Below, one piece after another: positions 3,001-27,749 of a stretch of DNA of 33,774 bases (its first letter is position 1; every line of letters begins with the position of its first letter). The notes under the pieces were generated by a model that saw only the letters and a list, made by a program, of their open reading frames with translations, had not been told where the DNA came from and searched no databases. This DNA is from a virus. Location of the stretch: the IMG/VR virus record IMGVR_UViG_3300008266_000391, positions 1 through 33,774 of that record, one strand, 5' to 3'. Position numbers and translations under genes: made by a program.

Positions 3001-3169
3001 TGTTGAGTTTTTGACCGTGATTGTTGACGGTCGCCGGATGGCCGAAAGCATGGGCGGGGCGATGCCAGCCGCTGTCGGCGTTCGCCTGCAGTATGTCCCT
3101 GAATTTGAACAGCGTTACGGCATGGACAACCTGAGTGGGTTGGACGAAAACAGAAGGCGGACGAGCTAG
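2..3169 (+). CDS. Giant polyvalent phage protein, N-terminal part with zincin metallopeptidase motif (5' partial)
   Basis: The frame is open from the first bases, so the true start lies upstream; a GTG at 35 is internal. Counting from that GTG, residues 41-45 are HEGSH, an HExxH zinc-metallopeptidase motif. About 60 residues later, AFAETFEIYL (101-110) supplies a likely third zinc ligand (Glu). Long charged helical stretches follow (roughly 790-870). The last ~150 residues form a compact domain containing DSTFLSRVL and VGVRLQYVPEFEQRYG. Such multi-domain proteins are known in phages and conjugative elements as polyvalent proteins, thought to enter the host with the DNA and act against host functions. 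The frame closes at 3169 after a basic tail (ENRRRTS), while the -1 frame continues with convincing protein sequence (ADELEAIADRVSETVEG). A lost base in the A-run at 3147-3150, or a frameshift, therefore probably separates this from the next gene. The metallopeptidase assignment is by motif only. Confidence 0.75.
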   Translation, partial: TTEDTPADQQIVVLAGSQARLLAQETRGDFTPRADRNVVRLFESANLSTLAHEGSHWYLDTLWRMSKTENPHPFVLEQLAAVLEWHGKSPNWDAMFNADGSFTKEGVELQEAFAETFEIYLREGNAPTTALRSVFASFKQWLLNLYKSVEGVFMMRDLRTGAYTQRANLDRVKINDEIRQVFKRMLASDEAINAVHSGLARDGEAMAQAILKAQDPKGLWKPERKEKFLTRMRERYAAARERASAAHTARLIEEYYRNEQAINSAEEREVRLEVQSEIDERPEQRAYFWLSTGQYRDTREAQAEEAAAEDEAMRSLPQTVKSKAVDSLQMVAERGERTLAERVVISAAEREAINASAAETGLSVREITDAVRSHKAAHPIAQGWAPLVYVRTEIDKGKVAHQYQSVPYTFSSDANGRQLEPGTAAYDRRVASVARSMVEEVRSIFRRAANGDQNALNILAQAGWYKAMRTRLRHEFGGLGDLFADLLGATSPNTPVRGNWANAVEALRRASRGDFDGLILQWEAWADNLDAVETDLRAWFNERLDEGLSKKKIKGLPEYEEKIAAVRSARKMPDDLLPTKESNAKYGFNGANVIRAMVDLWRVVKNADPDISRGGTAPKAINFSGNLIGFRSRATIDVWAARLLQRLTGGRRLPSMVESSLSGDMREDGTTTLQFGFGQDAFSAAVAAIRADPELQTDAGLAEINDDDLQAVVWFIEKEIWTINDWTNAAGEGGSFELEANLTGTSQQDRVKELRRIIDASAPTATVTAANQDTAPALKAIEDHEAKHADEIEELRKLESGEVKGSKKRMAELGKIVRPPAEATRLLANVERAKAKLESLALEKVAAKGELAALEREVDRFVGGLSIQMSQDTQGIDFVPTDSDMARLGAAVRQAIYEADDKSAVLGSKALSTEGRYGGAERSLDLEVVAREGYNANTLWREMLVQAQAARQDSTFLSRVLRAGEEFDPLRHRPGVEIYLRSAASKEQLEKVLADLAKEGVEFLTVIVDGRRMAESMGGAMPAAVGVRLQYVPEFEQRYGMDNLSGLDENRRRTS

Positions 3170-3186: not shown

Positions 3187-6100
3187 GTGTCTGAAACCGT
3201 CGAAGGCGTTTCTTTTGCTGGTCAATTCTGGTACGATACGCAAGTGGCTTTCAGTCACCAGTATCAAGAGAAGATTGATGGCATCTCAGCTGGAATATCT
3301 GAAGGAAGCCCTGCAAAGGCGCCTGACGGCCAACGGTGGCAAGGAGACGCCATTCGTTCAGGGCTTGAGAGCGCAGATCGCCAGGTACGAGAAGCCGCGC
3401 GCGGAGAACCCGGTGGAGACGTTCTCGGTGGGGATGCGGGGACCGGCCCCCAAAGCCTAGCCCAAACCGTAGCCCCCCGCCAACTCGACGCGATGGGCTT
3501 CTACAGCGCAGCGCAGGAAGCCGCACAGCGCGTTCCCGATGGCATCTGGCAGATGGGCTGGCAGGCAGCGCGCAACTCGCTGGCGAAGGGCAGAGGAACG
3601 TCACGACCGACATTCGAAGAGCTTGACCAGCTCGGCCTTGATGACGCCGTGGCTGAAGCGCAGCGCGAGGCGGGCGAGCCGCTGAAAGGCGCTGAGCTTC
3701 GCTCCGTCGTTCTGGATATCATAGACGCCAACCGCATCATGATCGAGCGGGCAGACGCCATCTTCGATCCGGCGAAGGCGCGGGCTGCGATCCGCAAGAT
3801 GAACAAGCGGCAGCTTTGGGAGTCGCTCAGCCTGCATGATCGCGGCTGGTTCGCCAATCGCTGGGTTGAGCCCCGCGTTGAACGCGGCGTTCGCACATTC
3901 ACGCTGGACACGTCAGACGGAGACACAATCGTCCTTCAGTTCAAGGAAGACGAGATGGTGATCGGGTATAGCGGCGACCCGATGCGCGTCTCGTCAGTCG
4001 ATATTCCTGTCTACAGGAGTTTCACTCACCTGGGGCTCAAAGATAAGCCGCTGGTAGAAACCATCACTATCCGTCTTGGCGTTTATGAAGTCATCCCAGC
4101 GGCGGAGGCCGAAAACCTACTGCTCACGTCAAGCGTCAAGTACGCGGTCCAGAATCGGATTGGCGAGTTGTTTGCGGACCTTGGCGAAGAAACGGTCATT
4201 CGCAAGACGACACGCGAAGACTTGGCCGATAGCATTCCTCTCGTGGACAAGGGCTCGTATGGCAACGGCTCTCGGCGTCTGGAGCCCGAGGATTACGATC
4301 TTGACGGAGAGGCAACAAAGAGCGGCGAAATCCGCATGCTGCTCCCCGCTCGCTTTCATGATGACCTGACCGGGTCCACGCATTCCGGCGAGCCGGGCGA
4401 GGTCGTCAATATCCTCTGGTCTGTCCGCAAGGATGCTGATGGGAACAAGTCCCTCTTCCTGCGCCAGTTGCAGTCGGACGAAGCCCAGCAACTGCGCCGA
4501 GAAAAGGAGGCGATGCAGAGCAACCGAGAAAGCGAAATTCAGGTCTACATGACCCGCTTGGGCAAGACGCGCGCCGAGGCGGAAGAGGCGGTCCAGAACG
4601 ACATCGATTCCATGCTGACCGCGCCCCTGCTTGCGCGCACGTCCACTTGGGTCAACGCTGGTGTTCGGGCTCTTGTCTTTGAAGCGGCCAAGCAGCGGAT
4701 GGGCAGCGTGTCGGTTCCGACAGCGCAGACATCCACGATCATTCAGGGCAACGCTGACGCGGCGCAGCATTACGAAACCAACGTGCGCGGTGCGCTTGAG
4801 AAGATCGCGCGCCAGATGGGCGCCGAGGTCAAGGTCTCGACGGTGCAGTCTGCGGACTACCCGAACGGCGCAACCGTCTACACGATGCAGATCACGCCGC
4901 AGATGCGAGCGAAGATACTCTCCAGAGGCTTCCCGCTCTTCCAGACAAAGACCGGCAAGGGAACAACCACCCCGCCCGCTGATCTCCCCCTGATGCGCCT
5001 CAACCTGCAAGCCGTCCGCGAGCAGTATGGCGAACAGGCGCTGGCAGAAATCCCGCCCGAGGTTGCAGCCTTCAGCGCGACCGCGAACGATGTCGATATG
5101 TACCTTGCGACAGTCCGCGACATCCGCAAGACGCTGAACGAGACGCCGCCCAAGTCGCTGTGGAAATTCCTCTCGACGCCGCGCAACATCGGACAGGGCG
5201 AGGGCCGTATCAGCTACAGGGGCATCCGCGACACGGACGGCGAGATACTGAAGATCATTGGCGAGAAGAAGGCCGCGCGCGGGCTGATCGCAGACCCGAC
5301 GAAAGACAGCAAGCGCTCGCGCTCCTATGACATGCAGCAGGCCATCGAAGCCGCATGGGAGGCTGGCTATTTCGACGGGGAAGAGCTGCCGACGCCGGCG
5401 CAATTCCTCGACACGCTGCGCGCCGACATTGACGGGCAGGCCCCGCGCTACCGCCGCGACGACATCCCGACCGTCAGCATGATCGCCAACGCTGAACGCT
5501 GGGAAGCCTGGTTCGACCAGAACGACATCAACATCCACGAGAAGGATACAGCGGCCCTACGCGCCAAGCTGGCCGTGATGCTGACCGGACAGGGCGAGAA
5601 CGCGATCGGCCCGGATGAAGCAGCCCCGTTCTTCAAGATGCCCAACGGCAAAGCATTGCTCGACGGCCTGAAGCAAGGCCCGCTGCGCGACAAGCTGATC
5701 CGCGAGGAAACCCGCAGGCGCATGATCGAGCGCAACGGCGACGTGTTCCGGGACGGCACCATCATGGCGAAGGCAGAGGAATACGCCCGCAATGAGCTTC
5801 AGCATCGCCAGTGGGAGATCGAACTGGAGGCGCTTGCCGAGGCAGGCGGGCAGCGCATTGCGACGAACGCATTGAAGCAGCAGGCGATCGAGAACCTCCG
5901 CTCCAAGCAGGTCCGCGAGGTGCTGAACTACAACCAGTACCTCACGCTGGAACGCCGCTGGGCTGAGAAGGCGATCAAGGAGAAAGACCCGGCCAAGGCT
6001 GCGGAGTATGCGAAGTATCGGCTGCTGAATTCTTATATGTACTCGGAGGGCAAGAAGCTCGCGGAGCAGATCGAGAAGACCCGCAAGCACCTGCTCGCCT

Positions 6101-8544
6101 ATGAGAGCAAGTCCAAGCTGGCGCGGCTGTTCTCTGCCGGCAAGGAATACGCCGAGAACATGCGCGGGCTGCTGTCGGACTACCAGCTTCGCAACGAAAG
6201 CCGGAAAGCCGAGAACCAGCGGCAGGCGCGATCGGCATGGATACAGACGCAGATGGCGGGCATCGACCCGTTCGCAGCCTACGCCGATCCGACGCTATCT
6301 GTAGAGCAGCAGCAGATCGCCGCGGCTGAAGCGATCGAGCGCAGCAGCGTGCTTGCCCGCCTGTCCGAGGGCGTGGACGCACAGAACTACAAGTCGATCA
6401 CGGTGCAGGAGCTGCTTGCTGTTCGCGATGAGGCGGATCTCATCTGGAGGCTTGCGACTCTCAAGGACCGGCTGATCAAGGACGGCGAGCGGCGCAAGCT
6501 GTCGCTGGCGGCAGGCGACATTGCCGAATCCGTTGTCGCCAATCAGCCAAAGGAGCGCCCGCCCGAGCCTCTGGAAAGCAACCTGCCCGGCGAGAAGATC
6601 AAGCGCGCCGTCTCTGGCTTCATGGTGTCTCACCGCACGTTCCAGGCGCTGGCCCGGCAATTCGATGGCGGCAAGGATGGTGGAGTGTTCTGGCGCTACA
6701 TCGTGCGCCCGCTCAATGACGCTTTCGCCCGCAAGACGACGATGATGAAGCAAGTGGGCAAGGACATGGAGAAGCTGTTCTCCACGTTCACCCCGGCTGA
6801 GCTAGGCCGGTTCATGCGGGACCGGCAGACGATCGATCTCGGCGCAGGGCAGAAAGTCACGCTGACGACGCAGGGGCGTCTCGCAGTGGCGCTGAACGCA
6901 GGCAACGAGAAGAACCTCGCCCGCCTGATGGATTCGAACGGCTGGGATCGGCGTCAGGTCCAGGTCATCATCGACACGCTTTCCAAGAAGGAAATGGATT
7001 GGGTGCAGGCAACGTGGGATTATCTGGAGACATGGTATCCCGAGGCCGATCGCGTCCATGAGGCAGTACATGGCGCGCCAATGGATAAACAGGCGCCGCT
7101 TCAACTCGCGACCCGTTACGGCGTGTATCGCGGGGGGTACTTCCCGATTGCCTTCGACCCCCACAGGTCGAGCAAATCCGGGCAGCGGAAACTGGAGCAG
7201 GATGCGCAGGCGGCTGGCGGCGGCAGGGTTGGCACTCGACAGGAGCCGGGCTTCGCGAAGAAGCGCGTTAGCGGCAAGGTCACACTTCCGCTCAACCTTG
7301 ATCCGTTCTCGGTCATCCTGCGCCATCTGGATCAGGTCACGACATCGATTGCGACCGAGGAAGTGCTGCTTGATGTTGGCCGTCTGATCCAACACCCCGA
7401 CGTTGAGCGCGCAGTTATTGAGAGGCATGGCCGCGTCAAATACGACGAGATCATCGAGGCTGTTAAGGCAGCGAAGTTTGGCCTGCCGGTTGCACAGGGC
7501 GCCGTCGAGAAGATCCTGAACCACGTCCGAAACGGATCGACCGTCGCCAAGCTTGGGTGGAGCGTCAGCACGGCGATGCTTCAGCCATCTGGTATCTCCA
7601 ACTCCATCGTGCGCGTTGGTTTCCCGTGGATGATGCGCGGCTATGCCAGGATGCTGGGCGGCGCGGCGCAGATGGAAGGCTGGGCCAAGTGGGCGATGGC
7701 GCGCAGCGAGTTCATGCGCAACCGCCGCGAAAGCCAGAGCCCGGAACAGGTCAACCTTCTGGCGACACTGAAAGGCAACAAGCCGCTGGTCATGATCCAG
7801 CGCAGCGCGTTCCAACTGATGGCGCAGGTACAGTTCTTTTCCGTAGACCTGGCGACATGGTACGCAGGCTTCGACAAAGCGACCGCTGGTGGGGCAGACG
7901 AGGCGCTGGCGGTGTCGATGGCCGACCAGGCTGTCATTGATGCGCAGGGCGGTGGTGAAGCCTTCCAGACGGCGGGCATCCAACGCGGGTCGGTTGGCGT
8001 CAGGCTGCTGACCAACCTGATGAGTTATATGCTGACCACCTATCAGCTCAGCGTTCAAAGCGCTGCCAAGAAAGATCCGAACCTGCTTGTGAAGGTCGCG
8101 CGCATCTCGGCCGATATGGTCCTGCTCTGGTCGGTGCCGGTTGCTGCGACCTTGGCTATCCGCTTTGCGATCCAGGCTGCGATCGGCGGTGGCGACGATG
8201 ATGACGAAGAATACTGGTCGCTGGAAAACATCTCGCGCGAGCAGGCGTCGTTCATGATGTCGCCGTTCTTCGGACTGTCGCAGATCGCTGGGGCCGTGAA
8301 GACAGACCCGTACACCTATCGCGGGCCAGCTGGTCTCGACATGCTGGTGCAGTCATACAAGGCGATGGACGCTGCATCGCATGGCGATACCGAGCAGCTT
8401 CTGCGCCCGCTGAACCAGATGGTGGGCATGGCATTCCACCTGCCGGCCAACCAGATCGACAAGTCCGTGCGCGGATCAATCGCTCTGTGGAATGGTGAAA
8501 CAGATAGCCCTCTGGCCATTTTCTTTGGCCCGCCGCCGAAGTAG
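3187..8544 (+). CDS. Giant polyvalent phage protein, C-terminal part (LPD-type domains, membrane segment)
   Basis: A 1785-residue frame. GTG 3187 is nominal: the frame is open upstream to about 3148, where it continues the preceding protein, and ATG 3493 (MGFYSAAQEAAQ) is another possible start, without a clear ribosome site. Residues ~500-585 contain VSVPTAQTST and end in ITPQMRAKILSRGFPLFQ. This resembles the conserved module of large polyvalent proteins ending in 'ITPxMRxxxxxGxPLF'. A long alpha-helical, charged middle follows (~850-1150). The tail has a hydrophobic segment near 1640-1665 followed by GGGDDDDEEYW, and finishes with a Pro/Gly end (IFFGPPPK) typical of these proteins. It lies just upstream of the tail genes, so a virion-internal or injected role is likely. 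No enzymatic activity can be read with confidence. Residues ~30-95 overlap another small gene and look like a low-complexity linker. Confidence 0.8.
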   Translation: MSETVEGVSFAGQFWYDTQVAFSHQYQEKIDGISAGISEGSPAKAPDGQRWQGDAIRSGLESADRQVREAARGEPGGDVLGGDAGTGPQSLAQTVAPRQLDAMGFYSAAQEAAQRVPDGIWQMGWQAARNSLAKGRGTSRPTFEELDQLGLDDAVAEAQREAGEPLKGAELRSVVLDIIDANRIMIERADAIFDPAKARAAIRKMNKRQLWESLSLHDRGWFANRWVEPRVERGVRTFTLDTSDGDTIVLQFKEDEMVIGYSGDPMRVSSVDIPVYRSFTHLGLKDKPLVETITIRLGVYEVIPAAEAENLLLTSSVKYAVQNRIGELFADLGEETVIRKTTREDLADSIPLVDKGSYGNGSRRLEPEDYDLDGEATKSGEIRMLLPARFHDDLTGSTHSGEPGEVVNILWSVRKDADGNKSLFLRQLQSDEAQQLRREKEAMQSNRESEIQVYMTRLGKTRAEAEEAVQNDIDSMLTAPLLARTSTWVNAGVRALVFEAAKQRMGSVSVPTAQTSTIIQGNADAAQHYETNVRGALEKIARQMGAEVKVSTVQSADYPNGATVYTMQITPQMRAKILSRGFPLFQTKTGKGTTTPPADLPLMRLNLQAVREQYGEQALAEIPPEVAAFSATANDVDMYLATVRDIRKTLNETPPKSLWKFLSTPRNIGQGEGRISYRGIRDTDGEILKIIGEKKAARGLIADPTKDSKRSRSYDMQQAIEAAWEAGYFDGEELPTPAQFLDTLRADIDGQAPRYRRDDIPTVSMIANAERWEAWFDQNDINIHEKDTAALRAKLAVMLTGQGENAIGPDEAAPFFKMPNGKALLDGLKQGPLRDKLIREETRRRMIERNGDVFRDGTIMAKAEEYARNELQHRQWEIELEALAEAGGQRIATNALKQQAIENLRSKQVREVLNYNQYLTLERRWAEKAIKEKDPAKAAEYAKYRLLNSYMYSEGKKLAEQIEKTRKHLLAYESKSKLARLFSAGKEYAENMRGLLSDYQLRNESRKAENQRQARSAWIQTQMAGIDPFAAYADPTLSVEQQQIAAAEAIERSSVLARLSEGVDAQNYKSITVQELLAVRDEADLIWRLATLKDRLIKDGERRKLSLAAGDIAESVVANQPKERPPEPLESNLPGEKIKRAVSGFMVSHRTFQALARQFDGGKDGGVFWRYIVRPLNDAFARKTTMMKQVGKDMEKLFSTFTPAELGRFMRDRQTIDLGAGQKVTLTTQGRLAVALNAGNEKNLARLMDSNGWDRRQVQVIIDTLSKKEMDWVQATWDYLETWYPEADRVHEAVHGAPMDKQAPLQLATRYGVYRGGYFPIAFDPHRSSKSGQRKLEQDAQAAGGGRVGTRQEPGFAKKRVSGKVTLPLNLDPFSVILRHLDQVTTSIATEEVLLDVGRLIQHPDVERAVIERHGRVKYDEIIEAVKAAKFGLPVAQGAVEKILNHVRNGSTVAKLGWSVSTAMLQPSGISNSIVRVGFPWMMRGYARMLGGAAQMEGWAKWAMARSEFMRNRRESQSPEQVNLLATLKGNKPLVMIQRSAFQLMAQVQFFSVDLATWYAGFDKATAGGADEALAVSMADQAVIDAQGGGEAFQTAGIQRGSVGVRLLTNLMSYMLTTYQLSVQSAAKKDPNLLVKVARISADMVLLWSVPVAATLAIRFAIQAAIGGGDDDDEEYWSLENISREQASFMMSPFFGLSQIAGAVKTDPYTYRGPAGLDMLVQSYKAMDAASHGDTEQLLRPLNQMVGMAFHLPANQIDKSVRGSIALWNGETDSPLAIFFGPPPK
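3278..3460 (+). CDS. Small protein of 60 residues overprinted on the giant-protein junction
   Basis: ATG 3278 follows an AAGAGAAG ribosome-binding stretch at good distance and encodes MASQLEYLKEALQRRLTANG, then an amphipathic helix and a tail with ETFSVGMRGP. Third codon positions are mostly G or C in this frame (roughly three quarters by eye). In the overlapping long frame they are clearly less biased (about half), and that frame here reads as Gly/Ala/Asp-rich linker. This supports the small frame as the selected one over 3278-3460. The composition (short helix, basic middle, FSVGMR tail) resembles small proteins beside large phage structural genes, from memory only. Function unknown. It could instead be a displaced piece of the giant protein if two compensating frameshifts exist. 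Confidence 0.55.
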   Translation: MASQLEYLKEALQRRLTANGGKETPFVQGLRAQIARYEKPRAENPVETFSVGMRGPAPKA

Positions 8545-8554
8545 AATCAGCACC

Positions 8555-9133
8555 ATGATTTGTGCAGCGCCTGGATGTAGCAGCGAAGCGAAAACGCGCG
8601 GTCATTGCGCGCGGCACTATAGCAAGCTCCGCTACCACGGGGAGATTGAAGTCCGTCGCAACGCCAAGTTCGGACTTGGCGAAGAGTTCATTCGAATGGC
8701 TTTGGCGAGCGACACGACCGAGTGTCTTGAGTGGCCCTGCGGCTTGGACAAAGACGGATACGGGCAGGTGAACTATCAGGGGCGGCACGATCGAACGAAC
8801 CGGCTTGTGTGTCGCCTTGCGCATGGCGAGCCTCCGCACCCTGGCGCTCACGCTGCGCACGAATGCGGAAATCCAAAGTGCTGCAATCCGCGCCATCTCT
8901 CGTGGAAAAGCATCAAGTCAAACATGCACGATAAGTGGAAGCACGGCACCATGTACGCAGGTGCGCGCCACCACAAAACGAAACTGACTGAGGCTCAAGT
9001 TCTTAGCATTCTGAACGACAACCGAGGGCCGACTGCCATTGCCAAGGATTACGGCGTCACAAAAAGCGCCATCATAAACATTCGCCAAGGCAAGGCTTGG
9101 GCCATCCTAACCGGCATCCGCAAAGCCGCCTGA
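8555..9133 (+). CDS. HNH endonuclease with N-terminal zinc finger and C-terminal HTH
   Basis: A 192-residue protein; ATG 8555 is chosen over an upstream in-frame GTG at 8492, which would overlap the giant gene. Residues 3-28 form a small Cys/His finger (CAAPGC...HCARHY). The central HNH core reads CLEWPCGLDKDGYG, then AHECGNPKCCNPRHLSW, the HNH_3-type arrangement of free-standing phage homing nucleases. The C-terminus (TAIAKDYGVTKSAIINIRQG) is a helix-turn-helix likely used for site recognition. It sits between the giant protein and the tailspike, as expected for an inserted selfish nuclease gene. It has no coupling to its neighbours. Confidence 0.85.
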   Translation: MICAAPGCSSEAKTRGHCARHYSKLRYHGEIEVRRNAKFGLGEEFIRMALASDTTECLEWPCGLDKDGYGQVNYQGRHDRTNRLVCRLAHGEPPHPGAHAAHECGNPKCCNPRHLSWKSIKSNMHDKWKHGTMYAGARHHKTKLTEAQVLSILNDNRGPTAIAKDYGVTKSAIINIRQGKAWAILTGIRKAA

Positions 9134-9366: not shown

Positions 9367-12285
9367 ATGACCCTTACAACAGCCTGCACCCCGCGTGTGG
9401 TCATAACTGGCAACAGCACGCTTGGGCCTTACAGCCTCGTCGATTCCAGCAGTGTCGCCATCAGGCTGGTGTCCACGGGGCATCTGAAGCTGACGCGGTA
9501 TGCAGCCTCGACCGATGACAACAACGATGGAACGCTGCTGGTTCTGAACACTGATTACACAGTGGGAGGTACGCAGGATGCGCGCACCTTCACGCTGATC
9601 GGATCGCAGGCGGTGCTGACATCCTCTCAGCGCATCGTGGCTGAACGGGTGCAGAGCTACACGCAAGACCTCGACCTGACGACGGGCGGTTCGTTCAACT
9701 CCTCCAGCCTCGAGAGCCGGTTCGACAAGCTCGCGGAGTTCCAGCAGGAACTGAAGGCGCGGCTGGATCGCGTGCCGGCGCTTCAGTTTGCGGACACAAC
9801 GGCGAACGTGGCGTTTCCCTCGCCGCCTACTTCGGGATCGGCGGTGCTGGGGCGTAGCTCTGACGGATCGCTCGTGCATCTCACGGCGGCTGATCTCAGC
9901 GCAGATGTCGTGCTGGGCAGCGGATGGGGCGATGCGCTGGCGACAGTGCTGGTTAACAATATCTCTGCGATGCTGGCGCTTGATCCTGCCGACAATCAGA
10001 TCATTCGTTTCACGGCATCCGGCGCAGAGGCCATTGACCAGGAAGATATCGAGGTCATCCCGACCGGAGAAATTACAGCCAACGCGATTGACGATCTGAT
10101 CGGCGGCTACCGCTGGAACAGCTCCAGCCTGTCCAGCACAATGGTTGTCACCACGAAGGCGTTCTCCAGCGGCGACATCAACGCGACCACGAACCGGCTT
10201 ACGTGGACGGCGCATTCCAGGTGGACCGGCGAGGGCGGCATTGTCTCGGCAGGGGATGGGCTGACGGCGCTCACGACCGTCTACTATCTCCGCTGGTACG
10301 ACGACAACACGCTGACGCTGCACCCGACGTGCGAGGATGCGCTGTCGGGGACCAACACGGTAGACATCACCGGCACGACCGGCTTCACGCTGAGCATCCT
10401 GCGCGACCCGCGTCAGGGCGTCTACAAGCTGCGGGCAGGCGCATCGCTCACCGGCTCTGGCGGCGCACTCGTTCGGCAGATCAACGGCGTTGTGTCCCCG
10501 CGCATGTTCGGCGCGACCTTGGCGGCGAGCGACAACTCGGCGGCAATCATGGCCGCGTTCAACTACATGCGGTACTCATGGAACGCCTCGCGCCATGCTT
10601 TCGACGCGGCTGTGGACTTTGAGGGCATCCAGTATTTCTGCTCGCGCCCGGTCCACATCTTCAACCTGCGCCAGCCGGATGCCAAGTTCGGGAACGGCGG
10701 CATCTACTCCACAGCTACCGGCAAGATTGCGCTCTGCCTCGCTGGCATGAACGCGCCGGTCATTGAGAACTTCGAAGTCTACGGCGACCAGACAAGTTCG
10801 CCCGCAGTCGGCATCTACTACGGTCGCAGCTTCGACGGCGCTTCCGCCCCCATCGCACCTGACGCCCGCATGTCGGATGTTCGCACGCAGGGGTTCTTCT
10901 CGCAGGCTGGCGCGGTCAACTTCGCGTCCGAAACCGATTCGCTGATCAATTGCTCGCACGACAACCAGCACCGAACACTGACGGCTGTTTCGTTCGCCTG
11001 TATCCGCAACATGCAGTCATGGGTGGATCAATTCGGCTCTGCCCTCACAAGCGATTTCGGCAACCTGCCGACGACGGCAAGCGGCAACCACAGCAACATC
11101 CTGCATATGTGGTCGCAGCACAGGGTGACGCGCAACAGCGTCATCTCGATGGCAATCAGCGGTATCACGAAAGCCAACCCCGCCGTGGTGACTGTGTCAT
11201 CGGCAGGGCTGACTGCAAGCGGCCTGACCAACGGCGATCCGATCTTCTTGGACATCGCCGGGATGACCGAACTTGTCGGCACGGTGCAGACCATCGCCAA
11301 CATCAACCTTGGCGCGGGTACGTTCGAGCTTTCCGGCATCAACAGCACGGCATACGGCACGTTCACAACCGGCTACGCACGCAACAAGACCGGCCCGTCC
11401 ATGCTGATCGGCGGCGCGTTCTCGGTGTTTGGCCGCACCTGCTATCACCTGACCTACGGCTCGCCCTCGATCATCTTCGACCTTCCGAACGGCACGCCTG
11501 ATGGGTTCGACTACGAGTTCCAGGACGAGAACAACCCCGACCAGCCGATCCTGTTCCGCGCTGGGTCTGGCGCGTATGCAATCCAAGGCTTCAGGGCGCG
11601 CATCGACTCGTGGTCGCAGAAATCAGCCAACAACATCATCGGTTATGAAGGCACGACCGGCACGGTTCAAATCCAGAACTTTTACCTGCATGTGGTCAAC
11701 ATGGCGACGGCCCCCGCCTCCGACATATTCGAGGACCCTGGCAAGTACACGCTTTACGGCGCAACACAGATTGTGCCTCTTGCGGCGGCGCTCAACACCA
11801 TATCGGCCTTCGCAGTCTATCGCGGCGAGACGACCGCATTCGACCGCACGCCCAAGACCATTGAGTACGGCGATGAAAGCGCCCTGACGGCAACGGTTGC
11901 CTACGCCACGCCGGGGACAAGTTCGTTTGTCTACACGCAGCAGACCTTCCGGGGCGAGCGGATCGGCGGGCGTTACTTTTTCACGATGCTGCTGGCGTTC
12001 ACGCCAACGAACGGCACGGCCAGCGGCGCGCTTGAAATTACGGTTGGGAGCCTGCCTTATCTGCCTGTGCAGGAAACGCCGCTGACGCTTGGACGTGCTG
12101 ACAATATCGACGTTCTTGGCGGCTCAAGCGACAATGCGTTGGGCGCGTACATGGACACGGACGGCAAGATCTACATCTGGCGCTTCCGTGACGCGACGAC
12201 CGGCGCACAGGCTGGCGTGGGCAGCATCCCGACCGGAACAGCAATCACGATCCAGATTTCAGGCCATTACGAAGTTGTTGACTGA
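9367..12285 (+). CDS. Tail fibre/tailspike with T7-type attachment domain and beta-helix
   Basis: A 972-residue virion protein. ATG 9367 follows GAGGAACG. Residues ~1-137 match the usual podovirus tail-fibre anchor pattern: a beta-rich segment, then ERVQSYTQDLDLTTGGSFNS and the helix ESRFDKLAEFQQELKARLDR. From ~375 the sequence VSPRMFGATLAASDNSAAIM resembles the start of pectate-lyase-like beta-helix tailspikes ('FGA..D.t.ai'), followed by several hundred Gly/Thr/Asn-rich residues. The last ~100 residues form a separate C-terminal domain (TPTNGTASGALEI ... GHYEVVD). The role would be host-surface binding and perhaps polysaccharide cleavage; catalytic residues cannot be assigned by eye. Confidence 0.85.
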   Translation: MTLTTACTPRVVITGNSTLGPYSLVDSSSVAIRLVSTGHLKLTRYAASTDDNNDGTLLVLNTDYTVGGTQDARTFTLIGSQAVLTSSQRIVAERVQSYTQDLDLTTGGSFNSSSLESRFDKLAEFQQELKARLDRVPALQFADTTANVAFPSPPTSGSAVLGRSSDGSLVHLTAADLSADVVLGSGWGDALATVLVNNISAMLALDPADNQIIRFTASGAEAIDQEDIEVIPTGEITANAIDDLIGGYRWNSSSLSSTMVVTTKAFSSGDINATTNRLTWTAHSRWTGEGGIVSAGDGLTALTTVYYLRWYDDNTLTLHPTCEDALSGTNTVDITGTTGFTLSILRDPRQGVYKLRAGASLTGSGGALVRQINGVVSPRMFGATLAASDNSAAIMAAFNYMRYSWNASRHAFDAAVDFEGIQYFCSRPVHIFNLRQPDAKFGNGGIYSTATGKIALCLAGMNAPVIENFEVYGDQTSSPAVGIYYGRSFDGASAPIAPDARMSDVRTQGFFSQAGAVNFASETDSLINCSHDNQHRTLTAVSFACIRNMQSWVDQFGSALTSDFGNLPTTASGNHSNILHMWSQHRVTRNSVISMAISGITKANPAVVTVSSAGLTASGLTNGDPIFLDIAGMTELVGTVQTIANINLGAGTFELSGINSTAYGTFTTGYARNKTGPSMLIGGAFSVFGRTCYHLTYGSPSIIFDLPNGTPDGFDYEFQDENNPDQPILFRAGSGAYAIQGFRARIDSWSQKSANNIIGYEGTTGTVQIQNFYLHVVNMATAPASDIFEDPGKYTLYGATQIVPLAAALNTISAFAVYRGETTAFDRTPKTIEYGDESALTATVAYATPGTSSFVYTQQTFRGERIGGRYFFTMLLAFTPTNGTASGALEITVGSLPYLPVQETPLTLGRADNIDVLGGSSDNALGAYMDTDGKIYIWRFRDATTGAQAGVGSIPTGTAITIQISGHYEVVD

Positions 12286-12931: not shown

Positions 12932-13384
12932 ATGACGGAGACCTTAATTCGCGACCAGCTTGAGTTGGAGCGACAGCGGGACGCCTATGCGGCGCGGGAT
13001 AGGCTGGGCGCCCTAGAGCGCGACATCGCCGTCCTGAAGACGCGGTTCGAGGCGGCGGTTGACCAGATCCTGAAGGAACTTGCGAGAAGCGTTTCGCAGG
13101 AAGACCTAAAGGAAATTCGGCGCGAAACGCTTGAACTAAAGCGCGAGATCAGCGCCGAAATTCAAAGAGAAGTCGAGAAAATCCACATGGAATTTGAGAA
13201 ATCAAACGAGGCGTGGGCCGAGAAGATTCTGGTCGGCGCTAAGACGCTGAACGCTGAAGCGCAGCTCCAGCGGATGCAAGAAACGAAGCAGCTTGCGAGG
13301 CAGGTCGGGCTGACCGTCTTTGCAGCGGCGCTGAGCATCATCTGCACGCTGATTGTGTTCTGGATGACGACGGCGCGACCGTAG
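12932..13384 (+). CDS. Tail-anchored coiled-coil membrane protein
   Basis: A 150-residue protein starting at ATG 12932. Residues ~5-115 are a nearly continuous charged alpha-helix with heptad character (LGALERDIAVLKTRFEAAVD, then EIRRETLELKREISAEIQRE). One hydrophobic span lies close to the C-terminus (VGLTVFAAALSIICTLIVFW, ~125-145). This predicts a C-tail-anchored inner-membrane protein with a cytoplasmic coiled coil. The start context (GGGGCTGGG then ATG) is almost identical to that of the next gene. Function unknown. Confidence 0.8.
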   Translation: MTETLIRDQLELERQRDAYAARDRLGALERDIAVLKTRFEAAVDQILKELARSVSQEDLKEIRRETLELKREISAEIQREVEKIHMEFEKSNEAWAEKILVGAKTLNAEAQLQRMQETKQLARQVGLTVFAAALSIICTLIVFWMTTARP

Positions 13385-13403: not shown

Positions 13404-14642
13404 ATGGCTAAGTTTCTCGATAATTTTCTGGCGTTCAAAAACGAGGCAGACGCAACGCGCAAGTTTGCGCTGTTCGCTGTCGTCATCATCACGCTGGGCC
13501 TTGCCTCGCTGAGTGTGACCGGCATCGTTGCAACCGCAAACTGGACATGGCTGTCAGCCCTTCCGACCGTGGGCCTGATCTTTGCCGTGCTCGGCGCGGA
13601 GCTGCTGGCAACCGTCGCATTTATCCGCATGCTCACCGCATCGACGCTGTGGCGCAAGGTGGCCGGCGCGTTCATCTTCGTGGGCCTTGCAGCCGTGGGC
13701 GTCCACAATGCCGAAAACGGGGCCAAGGTTGTCTGGCCGGATCGCTTCGCGGAAAGCTCTGCTTCGCTACAGGCCAAGGCGGAACTGGCAGGCGAGGAAG
13801 CCGGAACACTCGGCACGGCGCAGCAGGCGGCTATCAGCGGGACCGGCGCAGAGCTTGAGCGCGTCCGCGTCCAGATCGCGGAGCTTAAGACCGAACAGCA
13901 GATCATGGCGAGCATGTCGCCCGAGGGCATCAGCAAGGCGCAATCGCTTTTGCTCGCTCAGGGCCTCTACTTCGGCAGCGTGGACGGCATCCGGCAGGAC
14001 AAAACGGAAAGCGCCATGCGGGCGCGTGGCGAGGCTATCCAAGGCGAACTGGCGACCCTCAAGGCCCGCGAGGATGGGCTCATGCAGGGGCAGGCGAGCC
14101 CCGTACAGCAGGCCACCACGGATCGCAGGCTGTCCGAGATCGAACTAGCCGACAAGGCAAACGCCGCGTTCTGGGCGTGGCTCTGGCTCATCATCATGCT
14201 TTGCGTTCTTGAGGGCGCCCGTTCTCTCAGCCTGTGGGCGCTCATCACCGACATCAATTCCAAGGACGCACAACGCGACCGCGACTGGACGGATGAACTG
14301 GCAGCGCTCCGTCACCAGCAAGAGCGGGCGAAAATCATCGCAGAGACGAACGCTGCGGTTGCCGCCTATTCGGCTCCTGCCGCGCCTGTAGCAGCCCCGC
14401 CTGTAGCGGTTGAGCCTCCCCCGGCTCCCATCCAACCCCCGGAGCCAGAACCCGCACCAGAGCCCGTCCCTGACCCGGAGCCGCTCGTTCTGGTCGAGCC
14501 GGTAGCACCGGACAATCAGAAGTTCCGCGACATGGGCAAAGCCTCTGCCGACGCGAAGGCGGCAAAGAAGGCGAAGGAAGATGCTTACATTCCGGTCCCC
14601 TCGCTCGTCGCGCGGGACGCTCTCAAACAGGCGCAGGGGTAA
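13404..14642 (+). CDS. Multi-pass membrane protein with PG-binding-like motif and Pro-rich tail
   Basis: A 412-residue protein. Three hydrophobic segments at ~20-43, 52-76 and 85-103 come first. A long coiled-coil-like loop (~115-250) follows, then a fourth span at ~254-280 (AAFWAWLWLIIMLCVLEGAR). Inside the loop, AQSLLLAQGLYFGSVDGIRQ (179-198) has the 'Q..L...G.Y.G.vDG' pattern of PG_binding_1 repeats. This hints at contact with peptidoglycan if the loop is periplasmic. The C-terminal ~100 residues are a Pro/Glu-rich linker and a Lys/Ala-rich end. It is three bases upstream of the Hsp70 gene, so the two are surely co-expressed. No complete family recognised. Confidence 0.8.
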   Translation: MAKFLDNFLAFKNEADATRKFALFAVVIITLGLASLSVTGIVATANWTWLSALPTVGLIFAVLGAELLATVAFIRMLTASTLWRKVAGAFIFVGLAAVGVHNAENGAKVVWPDRFAESSASLQAKAELAGEEAGTLGTAQQAAISGTGAELERVRVQIAELKTEQQIMASMSPEGISKAQSLLLAQGLYFGSVDGIRQDKTESAMRARGEAIQGELATLKAREDGLMQGQASPVQQATTDRRLSEIELADKANAAFWAWLWLIIMLCVLEGARSLSLWALITDINSKDAQRDRDWTDELAALRHQQERAKIIAETNAAVAAYSAPAAPVAAPPVAVEPPPAPIQPPEPEPAPEPVPDPEPLVLVEPVAPDNQKFRDMGKASADAKAAKKAKEDAYIPVPSLVARDALKQAQG

Positions 14643-14645
14643 GTC

Positions 14646-16151
14646 ATGTATATTGGCATCGACTTTGGAAGCACGAACACCACGGCTGCGTTGTGGGACG
14701 GCAAGCTGAGGATGATCGAACTCAACGCGGCAGGCACGACCACCATGCCTACCGTCGTCACCATGATTGGCGAGACGGCGCTTGTGGGGGAAGAGGCTGT
14801 CGTCGCGGGCGAGAAAAACCCCGCCTACGATTTCAGGAACTTCAAGCGGATGATGTCGGAGCCGTGGCATCCAGACGAGGACACCGGAGCGCAGACGGCT
14901 GAAGAGATTGACCCCGAGACTGGCCTTGGCACGGGGATGCTGGCCTTCGTTGGCCCGCACGACCTGCACTACCTGCCGACCGAATTGTCTACCTACATCA
15001 TCAGCGCCATTGTTGACGCGGCGAACCAGTTCCTCAAGCCGCACGATGTAGTATCGGGCGCGGTGATCGGCGTCCCCGCCACCTTCACGCCAGACCAGAT
15101 TGAGGCGGTCAAGCAAGCGGCGCGAAACGCAGGACTCGAAAACGTCTACACGATCGAGGAGCCTGTGGCCGCGGCCATCGCCCATAACATCGATGCCCGC
15201 CGACCGGGGGCCACGTTTGTGGTGGATTTCGGCGGGGGTACGCTCGATACAACGCTCACCCGCAGCCGCGATGGCCTGATCAGCATTCTGGCGAAGAACG
15301 GCATTGCGGATCTCGGCGGTGCGGACTTTGACAAGCGCATCGCTGACTACGTCATCAACCTCTGGCGCTCGGAGTTCCGCAAGGAACTGGAAGCGGGGCA
15401 GGTAGCGGACAACGGACAGCTTGACCGCGTGATGCCGAAAATCCTGGCGGAAGCGGAGAGCGTCAAGAAGCGCCTCTCCGTCTATGAGGAGACCACGTTC
15501 AAGCTAGACCCGGTGTCGCGCACGATCGACGGCGTCAGTCTCCCGATGATCTACCCCGTCTCACGCGCCATCCTGAACGAACTGACGCGCGACCTGATCG
15601 ACAGGATGATTGCTGCCTGCAAGGCCACCATTGAGGACGCCATTCGCAAGGACGCCAAGTTCAGTGCGAGCGGAGACATCAAGGCCGTCCTGTGCGTTGG
15701 CGGCATGACCCGCGTCCCCGCTGTGCGCCAGGCCGTCGAGGACTTCTTCGGCAAGGCTCCGCGCAAAGACGAAAACCCCGAGCAGGTTGTCGCTCAGGGG
15801 TGCGCCATCAAGGCGGCGATCCTTGAGGGCAGGCGCCCAGATATCTCTCTGGCCGACATCCTGAGTTTTGACGTGGCGATCGAGGGGCTGAACAACGTGC
15901 CTGTGATGGTCATCCCGCGAGGAACATCGTTCCCGTCGAAGAAGACGCTGCCCGTCAAGACTTCCGAGGACGACCAGACCGAAATTTCCATGCGCCTGCT
16001 CTGGGCCACACGCCCGCGCGCGGAAGACTGCCACGTTCTTGATGCGCTCGACATTCCCGTGGACCCAGCGCCGGCAGGCGTCCAGCGGCGCAAGGTTGTC
16101 GTGTCGATTGACGACGAGGGACACCCTTCGATCGAGAGCGTTGCGGCCTAG
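14646..16151 (+). CDS. Hsp70/DnaK-family chaperone lacking the helical lid
   Basis: The ATPase domain is complete by motif. Phosphate-1 is GIDFGSTNTT (4-13), Lys67 is in NFKRMM (DnaK Lys70), and Glu172 is in EEPVAAAIAH. Phosphate-2 is VVDFGGGTLD with Thr199, and the adenosine motif is VGGMTRVPAVRQAVEDFFG (351-369). A linker-like ILSFD (405-409) leads into a beta substrate-binding domain (VMVIPRGTSFPSKKTLPVKT). The protein ends at 501 with VVVSIDDEGHPSIESVAA, which aligns with the last strand of the DnaK beta domain ('IDADGILHVSA'). The ~130-residue helical lid is therefore absent. It should still bind ATP and perhaps peptides, with weak substrate trapping. No DnaJ or GrpE gene is visible nearby. 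It lies between the membrane protein and the lysozyme in the late block; a role in virion assembly, membrane-protein handling or interference with host DnaK is inference. Confidence 0.93.
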   Translation: MYIGIDFGSTNTTAALWDGKLRMIELNAAGTTTMPTVVTMIGETALVGEEAVVAGEKNPAYDFRNFKRMMSEPWHPDEDTGAQTAEEIDPETGLGTGMLAFVGPHDLHYLPTELSTYIISAIVDAANQFLKPHDVVSGAVIGVPATFTPDQIEAVKQAARNAGLENVYTIEEPVAAAIAHNIDARRPGATFVVDFGGGTLDTTLTRSRDGLISILAKNGIADLGGADFDKRIADYVINLWRSEFRKELEAGQVADNGQLDRVMPKILAEAESVKKRLSVYEETTFKLDPVSRTIDGVSLPMIYPVSRAILNELTRDLIDRMIAACKATIEDAIRKDAKFSASGDIKAVLCVGGMTRVPAVRQAVEDFFGKAPRKDENPEQVVAQGCAIKAAILEGRRPDISLADILSFDVAIEGLNNVPVMVIPRGTSFPSKKTLPVKTSEDDQTEISMRLLWATRPRAEDCHVLDALDIPVDPAPAGVQRRKVVVSIDDEGHPSIESVAA

Positions 16152-16162
16152 GGGGCTTTACT

Positions 16163-17269
16163 GTGAACGAGCTACAATTCACGAACGCTTACGGGCTCCG
16201 GTTGATTCAGGAGTTCGAGGGCGAGCCGCGCCTTGCCGCGCGCCTGTGCGAAGGCGGGAGGTACGAGCTTGGCTACGGGATCACGTTTGATCTCGACGGC
16301 CAGCCGTTCACTGCAACAAGCACCTGCACGCCAGACTATGCAGACGCCCTGTTCCGCAATGCGCTGAAGTTTTTCGAGGATGGCGTGCGCCGCCTCGTGA
16401 CTGTCCCGCTCAACAGCAACCAGTTCTCGGGGCTCGTGGCGCTGGCGTGGAATATCGGGCTGGAAAATTTCCGATCCTCGACTGTCCTGCGGCGCGTAAA
16501 CGAGGGGCGGATGGAGGACGCTGCGGCCAGCTTCGGGATGTGGGTATTTGCCACTAAGGGTGGACACAAGCAGGCGCTGAGGGGGTTGCTACGCCGAAGG
16601 TATAGTGAAGCCGCCCTATTTCTGGGCTATTCATGGACAGAGGCTTGCGACAACGACGCCATCGCATTGCAACGGGAAATCCCCGCCTCGCTGCCTGGTA
16701 CAGATCGCGTGATCTACAAGACCGCGTTCAAGGACGTGCTCGCCGTGGCGCAACGCTACCCGCTCCCGCCTCTGGACGACGAGCTTGTCCTCTCCACCCC
16801 CATCAAAGCTGAGCCTGCGGTCGTGCCGATCGCAAGCAAGGCGGGCCAGCCGGTGCCGCTGCCCGGCCCAGCACCGGCTGCGCCTGCCCTCGAAAAACCG
16901 GCGCTGAGTGGTCCCGCGTCGGCTACGGCCCCTCCGGTGAAAGTCCCTGCTCCCCAGCGGGCGCCGGAGGGGACAAAGCCCCCCGATCCGCCTGTCCCAA
17001 TTGGCCAGCAGACTAGCGCCGTAGATGGCGCAAAGCGCTCTGAGGAATGGTCCAGCGGCACTAAGGCGATGTGGCAGTCACGGCGCTTCTACGGCCTCGT
17101 GCTGATCATGGCGGGCCGTCTCTGGATGCTCAAGACGGGCAGCAACGCTTTCCTCGGCGCTGTCTCTGATCCGCTCGTGATGGAATTTGTTGGCGGCTTC
17201 GGCGTGATGATTGCGGGCGAGCTTATCCAGAGCTGGGGACGCGCCAAAGCAAAGAAGGCGCTGCACTGA
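16163..17269 (+). CDS. GH24 lysozyme (endolysin) with C-terminal holin-like membrane domain
   Basis: A 368-residue protein from GTG 16163. Residues ~8-165 are a phage (T4/P22-type) lysozyme: LIQEFEGEP carries catalytic Glu19, GRYELGYGITF is the equivalent of 'TIGYGHT', and VPLNSNQFSGLVALAWNIG is the conserved helical pair. Cys29 sits at the T4 Asp20 position, a known D/C variation. Glu35 sits at the Thr26 position, which is unusual. A long Pro/Ala-rich linker (~215-290) leads to two hydrophobic segments (RFYGLVLIMAGRLWML, ~308-323; VMEFVGGFGVMIAGELIQSW, ~335-355) and a basic end, as in small holins. No N-terminal signal or SAR segment is visible. The stop overlaps the next start by one base. 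Confidence 0.88.
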   Translation: MNELQFTNAYGLRLIQEFEGEPRLAARLCEGGRYELGYGITFDLDGQPFTATSTCTPDYADALFRNALKFFEDGVRRLVTVPLNSNQFSGLVALAWNIGLENFRSSTVLRRVNEGRMEDAAASFGMWVFATKGGHKQALRGLLRRRYSEAALFLGYSWTEACDNDAIALQREIPASLPGTDRVIYKTAFKDVLAVAQRYPLPPLDDELVLSTPIKAEPAVVPIASKAGQPVPLPGPAPAAPALEKPALSGPASATAPPVKVPAPQRAPEGTKPPDPPVPIGQQTSAVDGAKRSEEWSSGTKAMWQSRRFYGLVLIMAGRLWMLKTGSNAFLGAVSDPLVMEFVGGFGVMIAGELIQSWGRAKAKKALH

Positions 17270-17568
17270 TGGTCCTCGCAACGATCTGGGAATTCCTCAA
17301 GAAAATCCCCGGCTGGATCTGGCTCGTGGTGGCGGGGCTGGTGGTCGGCTTTGCCTATGTCGAGCGCGAGAAATCCAGAGCGCGGAAGGAAGTGAACGAC
17401 CGACGCGACAAGGAAGCCGCTGAGGTTGAGCGTGAAGTCATCTCAAACATTTCGGAGAATACTGATGAAGTTGTCCGCGAGGCTGACGCTGTGCGCAGCC
17501 ATCCCTCTGCTAGCGTCCTGCCAAACCAGACCGGCGCAACCCTCAGCGACCCTCATTACCGCGACTGA
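17269..17568 (+). CDS. Rz-like inner-membrane spanin
   Basis: A 99-residue protein whose ATG overlaps the lysozyme stop. The N-terminal membrane span (GWIWLVVAGLVVGFAYVERE, ~15-34) is followed by a charged coiled-coil periplasmic domain rich in Lys/Glu/Arg. This is the standard i-spanin layout. The second half of the gene overlaps the o-spanin gene in another frame. Together they would fuse inner and outer membranes at the last step of lysis of a Gram-negative host. Confidence 0.85.
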   Translation: MVLATIWEFLKKIPGWIWLVVAGLVVGFAYVEREKSRARKEVNDRRDKEAAEVEREVISNISENTDEVVREADAVRSHPSASVLPNQTGATLSDPHYRD

Positions 17569-17743
17569 CAAGGCGATATGGCGCGAGGCGCTTTGCTCAA
17601 CCGGCAAGGCCATCCTGATTTCGCGCAACGATATCCTGACCCTCGAAACAGCCGAGCAGATTGGCGACCACAACCATGCGCTGTGGTGCGCCTGTGATCA
17701 TCTGCGGCCGGCAGGTTTCGACGTCAGCATCTGCAAAGTTTAA
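17465..17743 (+). CDS. Rz1-like outer-membrane spanin lipoprotein
   Basis: ATG 17465 lies inside the Rz-like gene in the +1 frame, with CGGAGAA just upstream. The 92-residue product begins MKLSARLTLCAAIPLLASCQ: a signal peptide ending in an LASC lipobox with Cys19 as the lipidated residue. A short Pro-containing stretch (TRPAQPSA) follows, and then ~65 residues with several cysteines (HALWCACDHL). The last part is longer than in lambda Rz1 and the cysteines could form disulphides. It overlaps the i-spanin by 104 bases and ends beyond it, an overlapped Rz/Rz1 arrangement. Confidence 0.88.
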   Translation: MKLSARLTLCAAIPLLASCQTRPAQPSATLITATDKAIWREALCSTGKAILISRNDILTLETAEQIGDHNHALWCACDHLRPAGFDVSICKV

Positions 17744-17775
17744 CCGCGCCACGGCGCTCAATGGAGGACGTGACT

Positions 17776-18015
17776 ATGGGCTTCAAAATTGTCCGTGAGG
17801 ACGGCAAGACGGATTGGGGCTCGCTCCGCGCCGTGTTCTACTGCCTGCTGGCAACCTGGATTGTCGGCGTCCGGCTGATGGGCCTCGACCCGTTTGACGA
17901 CCTCGTCGCGGGCCGCTTCGACCTCGGCGTCATTTTCGATCTGTTCGCGGTGATCGGCGTCTACCTGCTGTGCTGGCACGTCATGTATCCAAACAGGCCC
18001 AAGGTCAGCCTCTAG
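17776..18015 (+). CDS. Two-span membrane protein of the lysis cassette, holin candidate
   Basis: A 79-residue protein. ATG 17776 is preferred over an in-frame ATG at 17761 because GGAGG at 17763-17767 sits eight bases before it. Two hydrophobic spans are visible (SLRAVFYCLLATWIVGVRLM, ~16-35; GVIFDLFAVIGVYLLCWHVM, ~51-70), separated by an acidic loop (GLDPFDDLVAG). A basic C-terminus follows. Size, topology and position after the spanins fit a class II holin or an antiholin; no specific family was recognised. Confidence 0.75.
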   Translation: MGFKIVREDGKTDWGSLRAVFYCLLATWIVGVRLMGLDPFDDLVAGRFDLGVIFDLFAVIGVYLLCWHVMYPNRPKVSL

Positions 18016-26519: not shown

Positions 26520-27749
26520 ATGACCGACTTCAAGACAATACCTGAAAAGTTTGACCGTTCCACGGCGCCTGCTGCGCTCCGCTACGGATCTGTCTGTTCC
26601 GGCATCGAAGCCGCGTCCGTCGCGTGGGAGCCGCTGGGCTGGAAAGCCTCGTTTCTCAGCGAAATCGATCGCTTTCCCCGCGCCGTCCTGTCCCATCATT
26701 ATCCGAAAGTACCCCTTCATGGCGACTTCACTTCGATCCAGGCGGGAGACTACGACCCAATCGACCTTCTGGTCGGAGGAACACCTTGCCAGTCTTTCTC
26801 AGTCGCCGGCCTCCGAGGCGGATTGGCAGACGACCGTGGTAACCTGGCGCTTGAATATCTTAAGCTGGCTCAACGCCTGCGCCCCAAGTGGCTGGTTTGG
26901 GAGAACGTCCCCGGCGTCCTGTCATCGGCTGGAGGACGGGATTTTGGTGCCGTACTCGGAGGGTTGGTCGAACTCGGGTATGGGTTCGCCTACCGAGTGC
27001 TTGACGCTCAGTTCTTCGGAGTACCACAGCGCCGCCGCCGTGTGTTCGTTGTCGGATATCTTGGAGACTGGCGACGTGCCGCAGCGGTTCTTTTTGAGCG
27101 CCACAGCCTGCAAGGGCATTCTCCGCCGCGCAGGGAAACGGGGCAAAGAGCTGCCCCCACAATTAGCGCACGCACTGAGGGCGGTGGGGGCCTCGGAACG
27201 GGCTTCGACCTCGACGGCGGCGTGATCGAGTGGCCCCCGCAAGTCGCGCCGTCCCTCTATGCAAAATTCGGCAACAAAATGGGGCTGGAGAACCAGCATC
27301 TTGACAGCCTCAAGGGCGGGTTATTCACGTTTGCCATTCAGGAACGCGCCGTCAGCGAGAACTTGGAGAATGGCCCGCAAGGCAAAGGCTACCAGCCTGA
27401 TGCGGCCTACACGCTAGAGGCGCGCAACAAAGTTCAGGCGGTCGCCTTCACGCAAAACCAGCGTGATGAAATTCGCGAACTTACGGTTGCAGGCGCACTC
27501 TCTGCCGAACCCGGCATGAAGCAGCAGACATACGTGCAAACGTCTGCCGTTCGCCGCTTGACGCCTCGCGAGTGCGAACGCCTCCAAGGCTTTCCCGACG
27601 ATTACACGCTGATCAGCCATCGCGGAAAGCCTGCCGCTGACGGCCCCCGCTACAAGGCGCTTGGGAACTCAATGGCCGTGCCAGTGATGCGCTGGATTGG
27701 TGAGCGCATCGCCACGGTCGAAGCCCGCCAGCAGGTGAGGGCAGCATGA
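26520..27749 (+). CDS. C5-cytosine DNA methyltransferase (orphan Dcm-type)
   Basis: A 409-residue enzyme with the C5-methylase motifs in order: I (YGSVCSGIEAASVAW, 22-36), IV (GGTPCQSFSVAG, catalytic Cys90), VI (ENV, 128-130), VIII (QRRRR, 170-174), IX (RLTPRECERLQGFPDDYT) and X (GNSMAVPVM). The target-recognition stretch (~190-340) is Gly-rich (ISARTEGGGG) and unlike well-known specificities. It transfers methyl groups from SAM to cytosine, probably protecting phage DNA from restriction or regulating genes. No standard partner restriction enzyme is visible, but a PD-(D/E)xK-like nuclease lies two short genes downstream. The stop overlaps the next start. Confidence 0.95.
   Translation: MTDFKTIPEKFDRSTAPAALRYGSVCSGIEAASVAWEPLGWKASFLSEIDRFPRAVLSHHYPKVPLHGDFTSIQAGDYDPIDLLVGGTPCQSFSVAGLRGGLADDRGNLALEYLKLAQRLRPKWLVWENVPGVLSSAGGRDFGAVLGGLVELGYGFAYRVLDAQFFGVPQRRRRVFVVGYLGDWRRAAAVLFERHSLQGHSPPRRETGQRAAPTISARTEGGGGLGTGFDLDGGVIEWPPQVAPSLYAKFGNKMGLENQHLDSLKGGLFTFAIQERAVSENLENGPQGKGYQPDAAYTLEARNKVQAVAFTQNQRDEIRELTVAGALSAEPGMKQQTYVQTSAVRRLTPRECERLQGFPDDYTLISHRGKPAADGPRYKALGNSMAVPVMRWIGERIATVEARQQVRAA

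Follow-up and report, generated by a model that had tools for sequence, protein, structure and literature searches.

The window analysed here is the whole of a 33,774-base virus record (IMGVR_UViG_3300008266_000391), from a phage whose integrase, Erf-like and repressor-like genes mark it as temperate. On the forward strand it carries a membrane protein, an Hsp70 and a lysozyme encoded one after the other, with the following features.

13404..14642, + strand: partner membrane protein, 412 aa, directly 5' of the Hsp70 gene (AF2 helices, hydropathy)
13920..14024, + strand: PG_binding_1-like segment of that protein, residues 173-207 (weak profile match)
14475..14639, + strand: its C-terminal tail module, approximately residues 358-412, co-varying with the Hsp70
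14586..14606, + strand: YIPVPSL, proposed ligand of the substrate-binding domain (SBD), resembling the Zuo1 LP-motif SLPLPTL (PMC7083937)
14646..16151, + strand: lidless Hsp70, 501 aa (PF00012, E=1.5e-88; AF2 pLDDT 90.3; TMq 0.86 to 4b9q)
14646..15839, + strand: its nucleotide-binding domain (NBD), aligned with E. coli DnaK, catalytic residues retained
15840..15857, + strand: its interdomain linker DISLAD, residues 399-404, aligned with DnaK 388-393 (DVLLLD)
15858..16148, + strand: its SBD-beta, ending in its own last strand, without a lid (DnaK alignment and AF2 model)
16163..17269, + strand: lysozyme with a Pro-rich linker and hydrophobic C-terminus, SpmX-like in layout (PF00959, E=1.6e-26)
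17269..17568, + strand: i-spanin-like reading frame, N-terminal TM segment and charged periplasmic part (sequence, hydropathy)
17465..17743, + strand: o-spanin-like lipoprotein (lipobox LLASC) in a different frame, overlapping the i-spanin
17761..18015, + strand: small 2-TM protein, possible holin (hydropathy)

The lysozyme, the spanin-like genes and the 2-TM protein 3' of the Hsp70 gene suggest that its setting is a lysis cassette, in which the holin candidate is a guess from its two TM segments only. Spanin genes of the same kind are found in the related records L041, L042 and L055. The hydrophobic C-terminal domain of the lysozyme comes in several unrelated types, freely reassorted between phages. 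A coiled-coil protein of 150 aa whose C-terminus is a TM anchor (12932..13384, + strand; hydropathy) is conserved in most relatives, encoded just 5' of the membrane-protein gene.

Further genes of the window stand apart from this region. Two adjacent giant genes (35-3169 and 3187-8544) match consecutive parts of the uncharacterised 2,231-position phage family phrog_9880, as if one gene had been split in two, and an HNH endonuclease gene lies at 8492-9133. The probable tail fibre at 9367-12285 is 87% identical over its first ~180 residues in L018, the rest showing no similarity found. The product of 26520-27749 is DNA methyltransferase-like, also matches a DNA primase family profile, and has an apparent insertion relative to several methyltransferase families.

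Typical Hsp70s are promiscuous, have a lid and are driven by J-proteins. The first-pass annotation of this DNA had placed the 501-residue reading frame exactly and had read all Hsp70 ATPase motifs in it, and the catalytic positions of DnaK are indeed matched one for one: D8, N13, K70, E171, D194, T199 and D201 of DnaK correspond to D6, N11, K67, E172, D194, T199 and D201 of the window protein, and K70, E171, D194, T199 and D201 (DnaK numbering) are invariant in 22 relatives. With these residues intact, ATP hydrolysis looks possible. The Pfam HSP70 match reaches 298 bits (cut-off 20.6; E=1.5e-88) and covers profile positions 2-483 of 599, that is, the NBD and SBD-beta; phmmer matches DnaK and mortalin across residues 3-493, and identity to E. 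coli DnaK is 33.5% over residues 3-492. The AF2 model, built with the 22 relatives at a mean pLDDT of 90.3, fits DnaK structures, with ATP-bound open DnaK (4b9q) among the best at TMq 0.86. These Pfam and structural matches are clearly to Hsp70 and led to rejection of a non-chaperone actin-fold ATPase, which had been raised as a counter-reading. The NCBIfam DnaK equivalog scores, at 287.6 and 281.8 bits, fall far short of their cut-offs (648 and 822.55), and the named matches of a viral fold library search were only Hsp70s of giant viruses and closteroviruses, together with actin-like proteins.

The C-terminal end required some correction. The lid is absent, as first proposed, but the protein does not stop at the end of the strand equivalent to 'DGILHVSA': the last strand in the model spans residues 494-497, so that the stop falls inside it and the end of DnaK beta-8 is missing besides the lid. 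The segment ILSFD, earlier taken for the linker, aligns instead with SBD strand beta-1, the true linker being D399-ISLA-D404. A split gene, or a lid in another frame downstream, was likewise rejected, since the lysozyme reading frame, whose sole Pfam match is PF00959, begins at 16163, already 12 bp past the Hsp70 stop. In an engineered DnaK without its lid, peptide affinity is reduced and on and off rates are 10-100 times faster, as cited in PMC7083937; by analogy with those published data, fast substrate release by the phage protein is plausible.

The positions through which DnaK is contacted by J-proteins are not kept. In DnaK, R167 is joined by a critical salt bridge to D35 in the HPD motif of the J-domain, whose H33 contacts L391, with a further contribution from E217 (PMC13012618). 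In the alignment with E. coli DnaK, R167, N170 and E217 become Y168, E171 and S213 in the window protein. Among the 22 relatives, the R167 position holds E (15), D (3), Y (2), S or K, the N170 position D, H, E or R, the E217 position never E, and the L390 position mostly T. Two lid-bearing phage Hsp70s from the same scan, L009 and L010, retain the J-contact segment RIINEPT. The lidless Hsp70 is thus, on its residues, probably J-protein-independent, and J-proteins would not be expected to act on it. P143 is invariant among the 22 relatives and D393 is retained in 17 of them; therefore, communication between the domains may survive. Deletion of the DnaK 208-211 loop was dropped as a sign of J-independence, because mortalin also aligns there without a gap. 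The first-pass annotation had noted the lack of DnaJ and GrpE, and neither co-chaperone was found when the window and about 20 relatives were scanned: PF00226 (DnaJ) gives zero matches in the 21 records scanned and GrpE is found neither in the window nor in the related records tested, positive controls being detected for both. HMO-2011-type phages, met in the literature, have a polymerase with a DnaJ domain; that J-domain is absent here.

These observations bear on the suggestion that the protein competes for host J-proteins or, more broadly, that it serves counter-defence by titrating host DnaJ, GrpE or substrates. Host chaperones do matter in phage conflict, DnaJ being involved in the sensing of phage by bNACHT25 (PMC12169576). 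However, R167, N170 and E217 are lost in all 22 relatives, the window protein has no PADLOC match, and the gene is tightly linked to that of a membrane protein within a lysis cassette, which makes such a hijack of host chaperones very improbable.

The lidless Hsp70 in a lysis cassette is a recurrent family, not a one-off. When IMG/VR was searched with the Hsp70 and with the protein encoded upstream of it, 31 contigs (counting the window) showed a membrane-protein gene followed by those for the Hsp70 and the lysozyme; these sequences are metagenomic and phylogenetically non-independent, some contigs being near-duplicates and the Hsp70 being cut by the contig end in two. All complete Hsp70s are lidless and measure 484-513 aa, and exactly one is present per record in the 18 such records scanned whole. 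The usual membrane-protein gene lies directly 5' in 30 contigs, and in the remaining one its place is taken by a substitute whose tail is of the same kind, so that a tail of the Hsp70 type is followed by the Hsp70 in 31/31, with the lysozyme next wherever the contig extends far enough. The recurrence of an identical gene order across 31 viral contigs led to rejection of host contamination. Among 50,697 phage records, none matches the upstream membrane protein. As for viral Hsp70s, a survey from 2026 includes a single Caudoviricetes sequence, with bacterial DnaK homologues >96% identical (PMC12978162). Host searches gave none in genome_contigs, where only a distant Janthinobacterium Hsp70 matched, and none in 399 genomes of the phylum of that Hsp70; in a class sample around an SpmX-bearing genome, only PG-binding fragments matched.

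The partner membrane protein is predicted (AF2, hydropathy) to consist of three TM segments, a helical or coiled-coil segment, a fourth TM segment, a Pro-rich disordered linker and the C-terminal tail, a topology that would place the coiled coil in the periplasm and the tail in the cytosol. A fold search with it gave no significant match. Its similarity to PF01471 is weak (E=2.2e-4 in the homologue P0004, below the curated cut-off, with 2/20 members matching), and genome matches are confined to the segment of residues 173-207.

Natural exchanges separate the tail from the rest of this protein. The Hsp70s of L007 and L008 are 95% identical, and their upstream genes and tail are common to both, but where L007 has residues 1-315 of the membrane protein, L008 has an unrelated 4-TM protein of similar topology. 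The two membrane proteins align only over their last 54 residues (61% identity, E=2e-19), and a profile comparison outside the tail found no similarity. Conversely, the membrane-protein core is present in L055, L056 and L087 with a different, longer tail and no Hsp70 in the whole record, and that alternative tail is found in L088 and L089 on another unrelated 4-TM protein, again without Hsp70. Thus tail type, and not the core, predicts the Hsp70: 31/31 with a tail of the Hsp70 type have it, and 5/5 with the other tail do not. The rest of the lysis cassette is retained in the relatives without Hsp70, so the latter is accessory. Their alternative cytosolic module, of approximately 110 residues (YYRDKIAGWMVAHNQGVPTVTIANGSGLTVAQMR) and with no Pfam match, occurs on two unrelated 4-TM cores, in the following genes.

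L055:5935-7296
L087:2635-4044
L088:5179-6558
L089:2597-3991

The same association appears in sequence distances. Pairwise identity distances were compared across 19 phages; against those of both Hsp70 domains, the last 42 aa of the membrane protein give r=0.96 and its core r=0.44-0.46, values drawn from non-independent distances with all segments measured alike. Along the membrane protein, r in 42-residue windows jumps from 0.28 (316-357) to 0.93 (358-399). For the lysozyme, r is 0.73 in the catalytic part and 0.14-0.16 in the C-terminus, and its first 42 aa, as close on the DNA as the tail, give 0.52. Individual pairs follow this pattern: the window and L014 share 95% identity in the core, 35% in the tail and 22% in the SBD, L020 and L030 share 96, 28 and 26%, respectively, and L025 and L031 are 98% identical in tail and NBD and 50% in the lysozyme. 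Tails and Hsp70s form at least five matched types. On the core tree the five types need seven changes against a minimum of four, which indicates more than one joint move of tail and Hsp70; the sister of the window on that tree is L014 (support 95/96), yet both tail and Hsp70 differ between them.

Since the two genes are adjacent, linkage contributes to this co-segregation, and it could be argued that a recombination hot spot in the repetitive Pro-rich linker moves tail and Hsp70 without any interaction between their products. The breakpoint of the correlation does fall in the Pro-rich stretch, and HNH endonuclease genes, which could drive the exchange of modules, are inserted in Hsp70 junctions of L001 (1296-2018, between membrane protein and Hsp70) and L015 (3660-4253, - strand, after the Hsp70). 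Nevertheless, the lysozyme is equally near on the other side and is exchanged more freely, L008 retains the tail on an unrelated protein, and, to judge from a dN/dS of 0.07 at dS 1.3 among B-type tails, the tail peptide itself is under strong purifying selection. Hitch-hiking without interaction is accordingly regarded as improbable.

The co-segregation of the neighbour's cytosolic tail with the Hsp70 fits best with one function already suggested in the first-pass annotation, that of a dedicated chaperone for a phage membrane protein. In the reading preferred here, which is reasonably probable, the phage-specific, lidless and probably J-independent Hsp70 would serve a single phage membrane protein as its dedicated partner. 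Like the LP-motif of Zuo1 in Ssz1, the tail would dock in the Hsp70's open substrate groove, acting there as a built-in ligand whose high local concentration makes a lid unnecessary. Once docked, it would keep the ATPase on the inner membrane, below the peptidoglycan, as part of an ATP-responsive complex under the cell wall; since the ATPase residues are intact and hydrolysis, unlike in Ssz1, looks possible, the nucleotide state could control docking. Physical docking of the tail on the Hsp70 is likely, and its taking place through the SBD groove rather than another surface is somewhat favoured.

The candidate ligand differs between tail types: YIPVPSL in the window, and LLVIGP, VLILAD, LIVIPSF or IPI, VPV and IPM cores in relatives. 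Examples of tail peptides for window-type and B-type pairs are KEDAYIPVPSLVARD and KTERLLVIGPVST. No site other than YIPVPSL in the six frames of the window matches the post hoc pattern [ILV]P[ILV]P[ST][ILVF]; a loose regular expression, drawn up for the tail motif after the fact and incomplete, was not used as evidence. A rough home-made DnaK-motif score ranks the tail ligand first among sites in types B, C and D, but neither in type A, to which the window belongs, nor in type E. The resemblance to Zuo1 is best taken as an after-the-fact analogy, unequal across tail types.

Another account is that the Hsp70 binds the tail transiently, only for the folding or insertion of the membrane protein and with no regulation. 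This help with assembly is the main rival to a role in lysis: the co-segregation fits it equally well, and the adjacency of the genes, with the Hsp70 start overlapping the membrane-gene stop in several relatives, suggests coupled synthesis. Yet membrane proteins with the same core and topology but another tail manage without Hsp70, so the fold itself does not need one, and client sites are seldom restricted to one co-evolving terminal peptide. A purely client relationship is for these reasons considered unlikely. It has less in its favour still that the tail anchors the Hsp70 at the membrane to act on the lysozyme, the spanins or the holin; in every lineage the Hsp70 gene does separate those of the membrane protein and the lysozyme, but the type of lysozyme is swapped more freely than that of the Hsp70, and such recruitment is rated as distinctly unlikely.

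For the dedicated pair, tuning of lysis would be the likeliest role because the Hsp70 sits in the lysis cassette, and a part in the timing or gating of lysis is accordingly entertained as a possibility, if a doubtful one. More tentative is a modular envelope switch, where a PG-facing membrane protein with exchangeable cytosolic modules would carry a terminal peptide holding the lidless, J-independent Hsp70, whose nucleotide state would control lysis, relatives substituting the ~110-residue domain within the protein. A viral parallel to the Ssz1-Zuo1 pair would place an Hsp70 in phage lysis, of which no description was found in the literature searched. The five or more matched pair types make specificity testable by simple swaps, and the L007/L008 domain swap and the Hsp70-less relatives are ready-made natural controls.

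Several known systems offer points of comparison. The muramidase domain of the window lysozyme matches SpmX and the GTA endolysin BgtA far below both curated cut-offs (NF051871 and NF058676), and the layout of a Pro-rich linker and a hydrophobic C-terminus is like that of SpmX. With DnaK, the phage Hsp70 shares domain order, catalytic residues and fold, but it has neither the lid nor the J contacts; the DnaK variant without its lid represents the same truncation in principle, engineered there and natural and conserved in phages here. Full-length phage DnaK proteins, known from moraphages, some of which encode DnaJ as well (PMC12619734), and represented by L009 and L010, which keep the lid together with RIINEPT, are also phage Hsp70s. 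The HSP70h of closteroviruses (PMC12978162) is similarly virus-encoded, diverges at its C-terminus and has p61 as its specific viral partner, although it belongs to plant RNA viruses, where it acts in movement and at the virion tail, and there is no sign of common acquisition.

The closest parallel is with Ssz1 of the fungal ribosome-associated complex, an Hsp70 without a lid whose groove is filled by the SLPLPTL of its partner Zuo1 (PMC7083937). Both cases would combine a lidless Hsp70, a present SBD-beta and a Pro-containing hydrophobic peptide from the terminus of a fixed partner, peptide binding being predicted for the phage. Ssz1, however, binds but does not hydrolyse ATP, whereas the catalytic residues of the phage protein are intact, and Zuo1 is a ribosomal J-protein while the phage partner is a membrane protein without a J-domain. 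The parallel is one of analogy and does not imply kinship. The phages appear to keep only the ATPase and the open groove, to lose the J interface, and to tie the Hsp70 to the peptide of one membrane protein; if this is true, they would provide a viral parallel to Ssz1-Zuo1 and show that evolution has twice produced a lidless Hsp70 with its own ligand built in.
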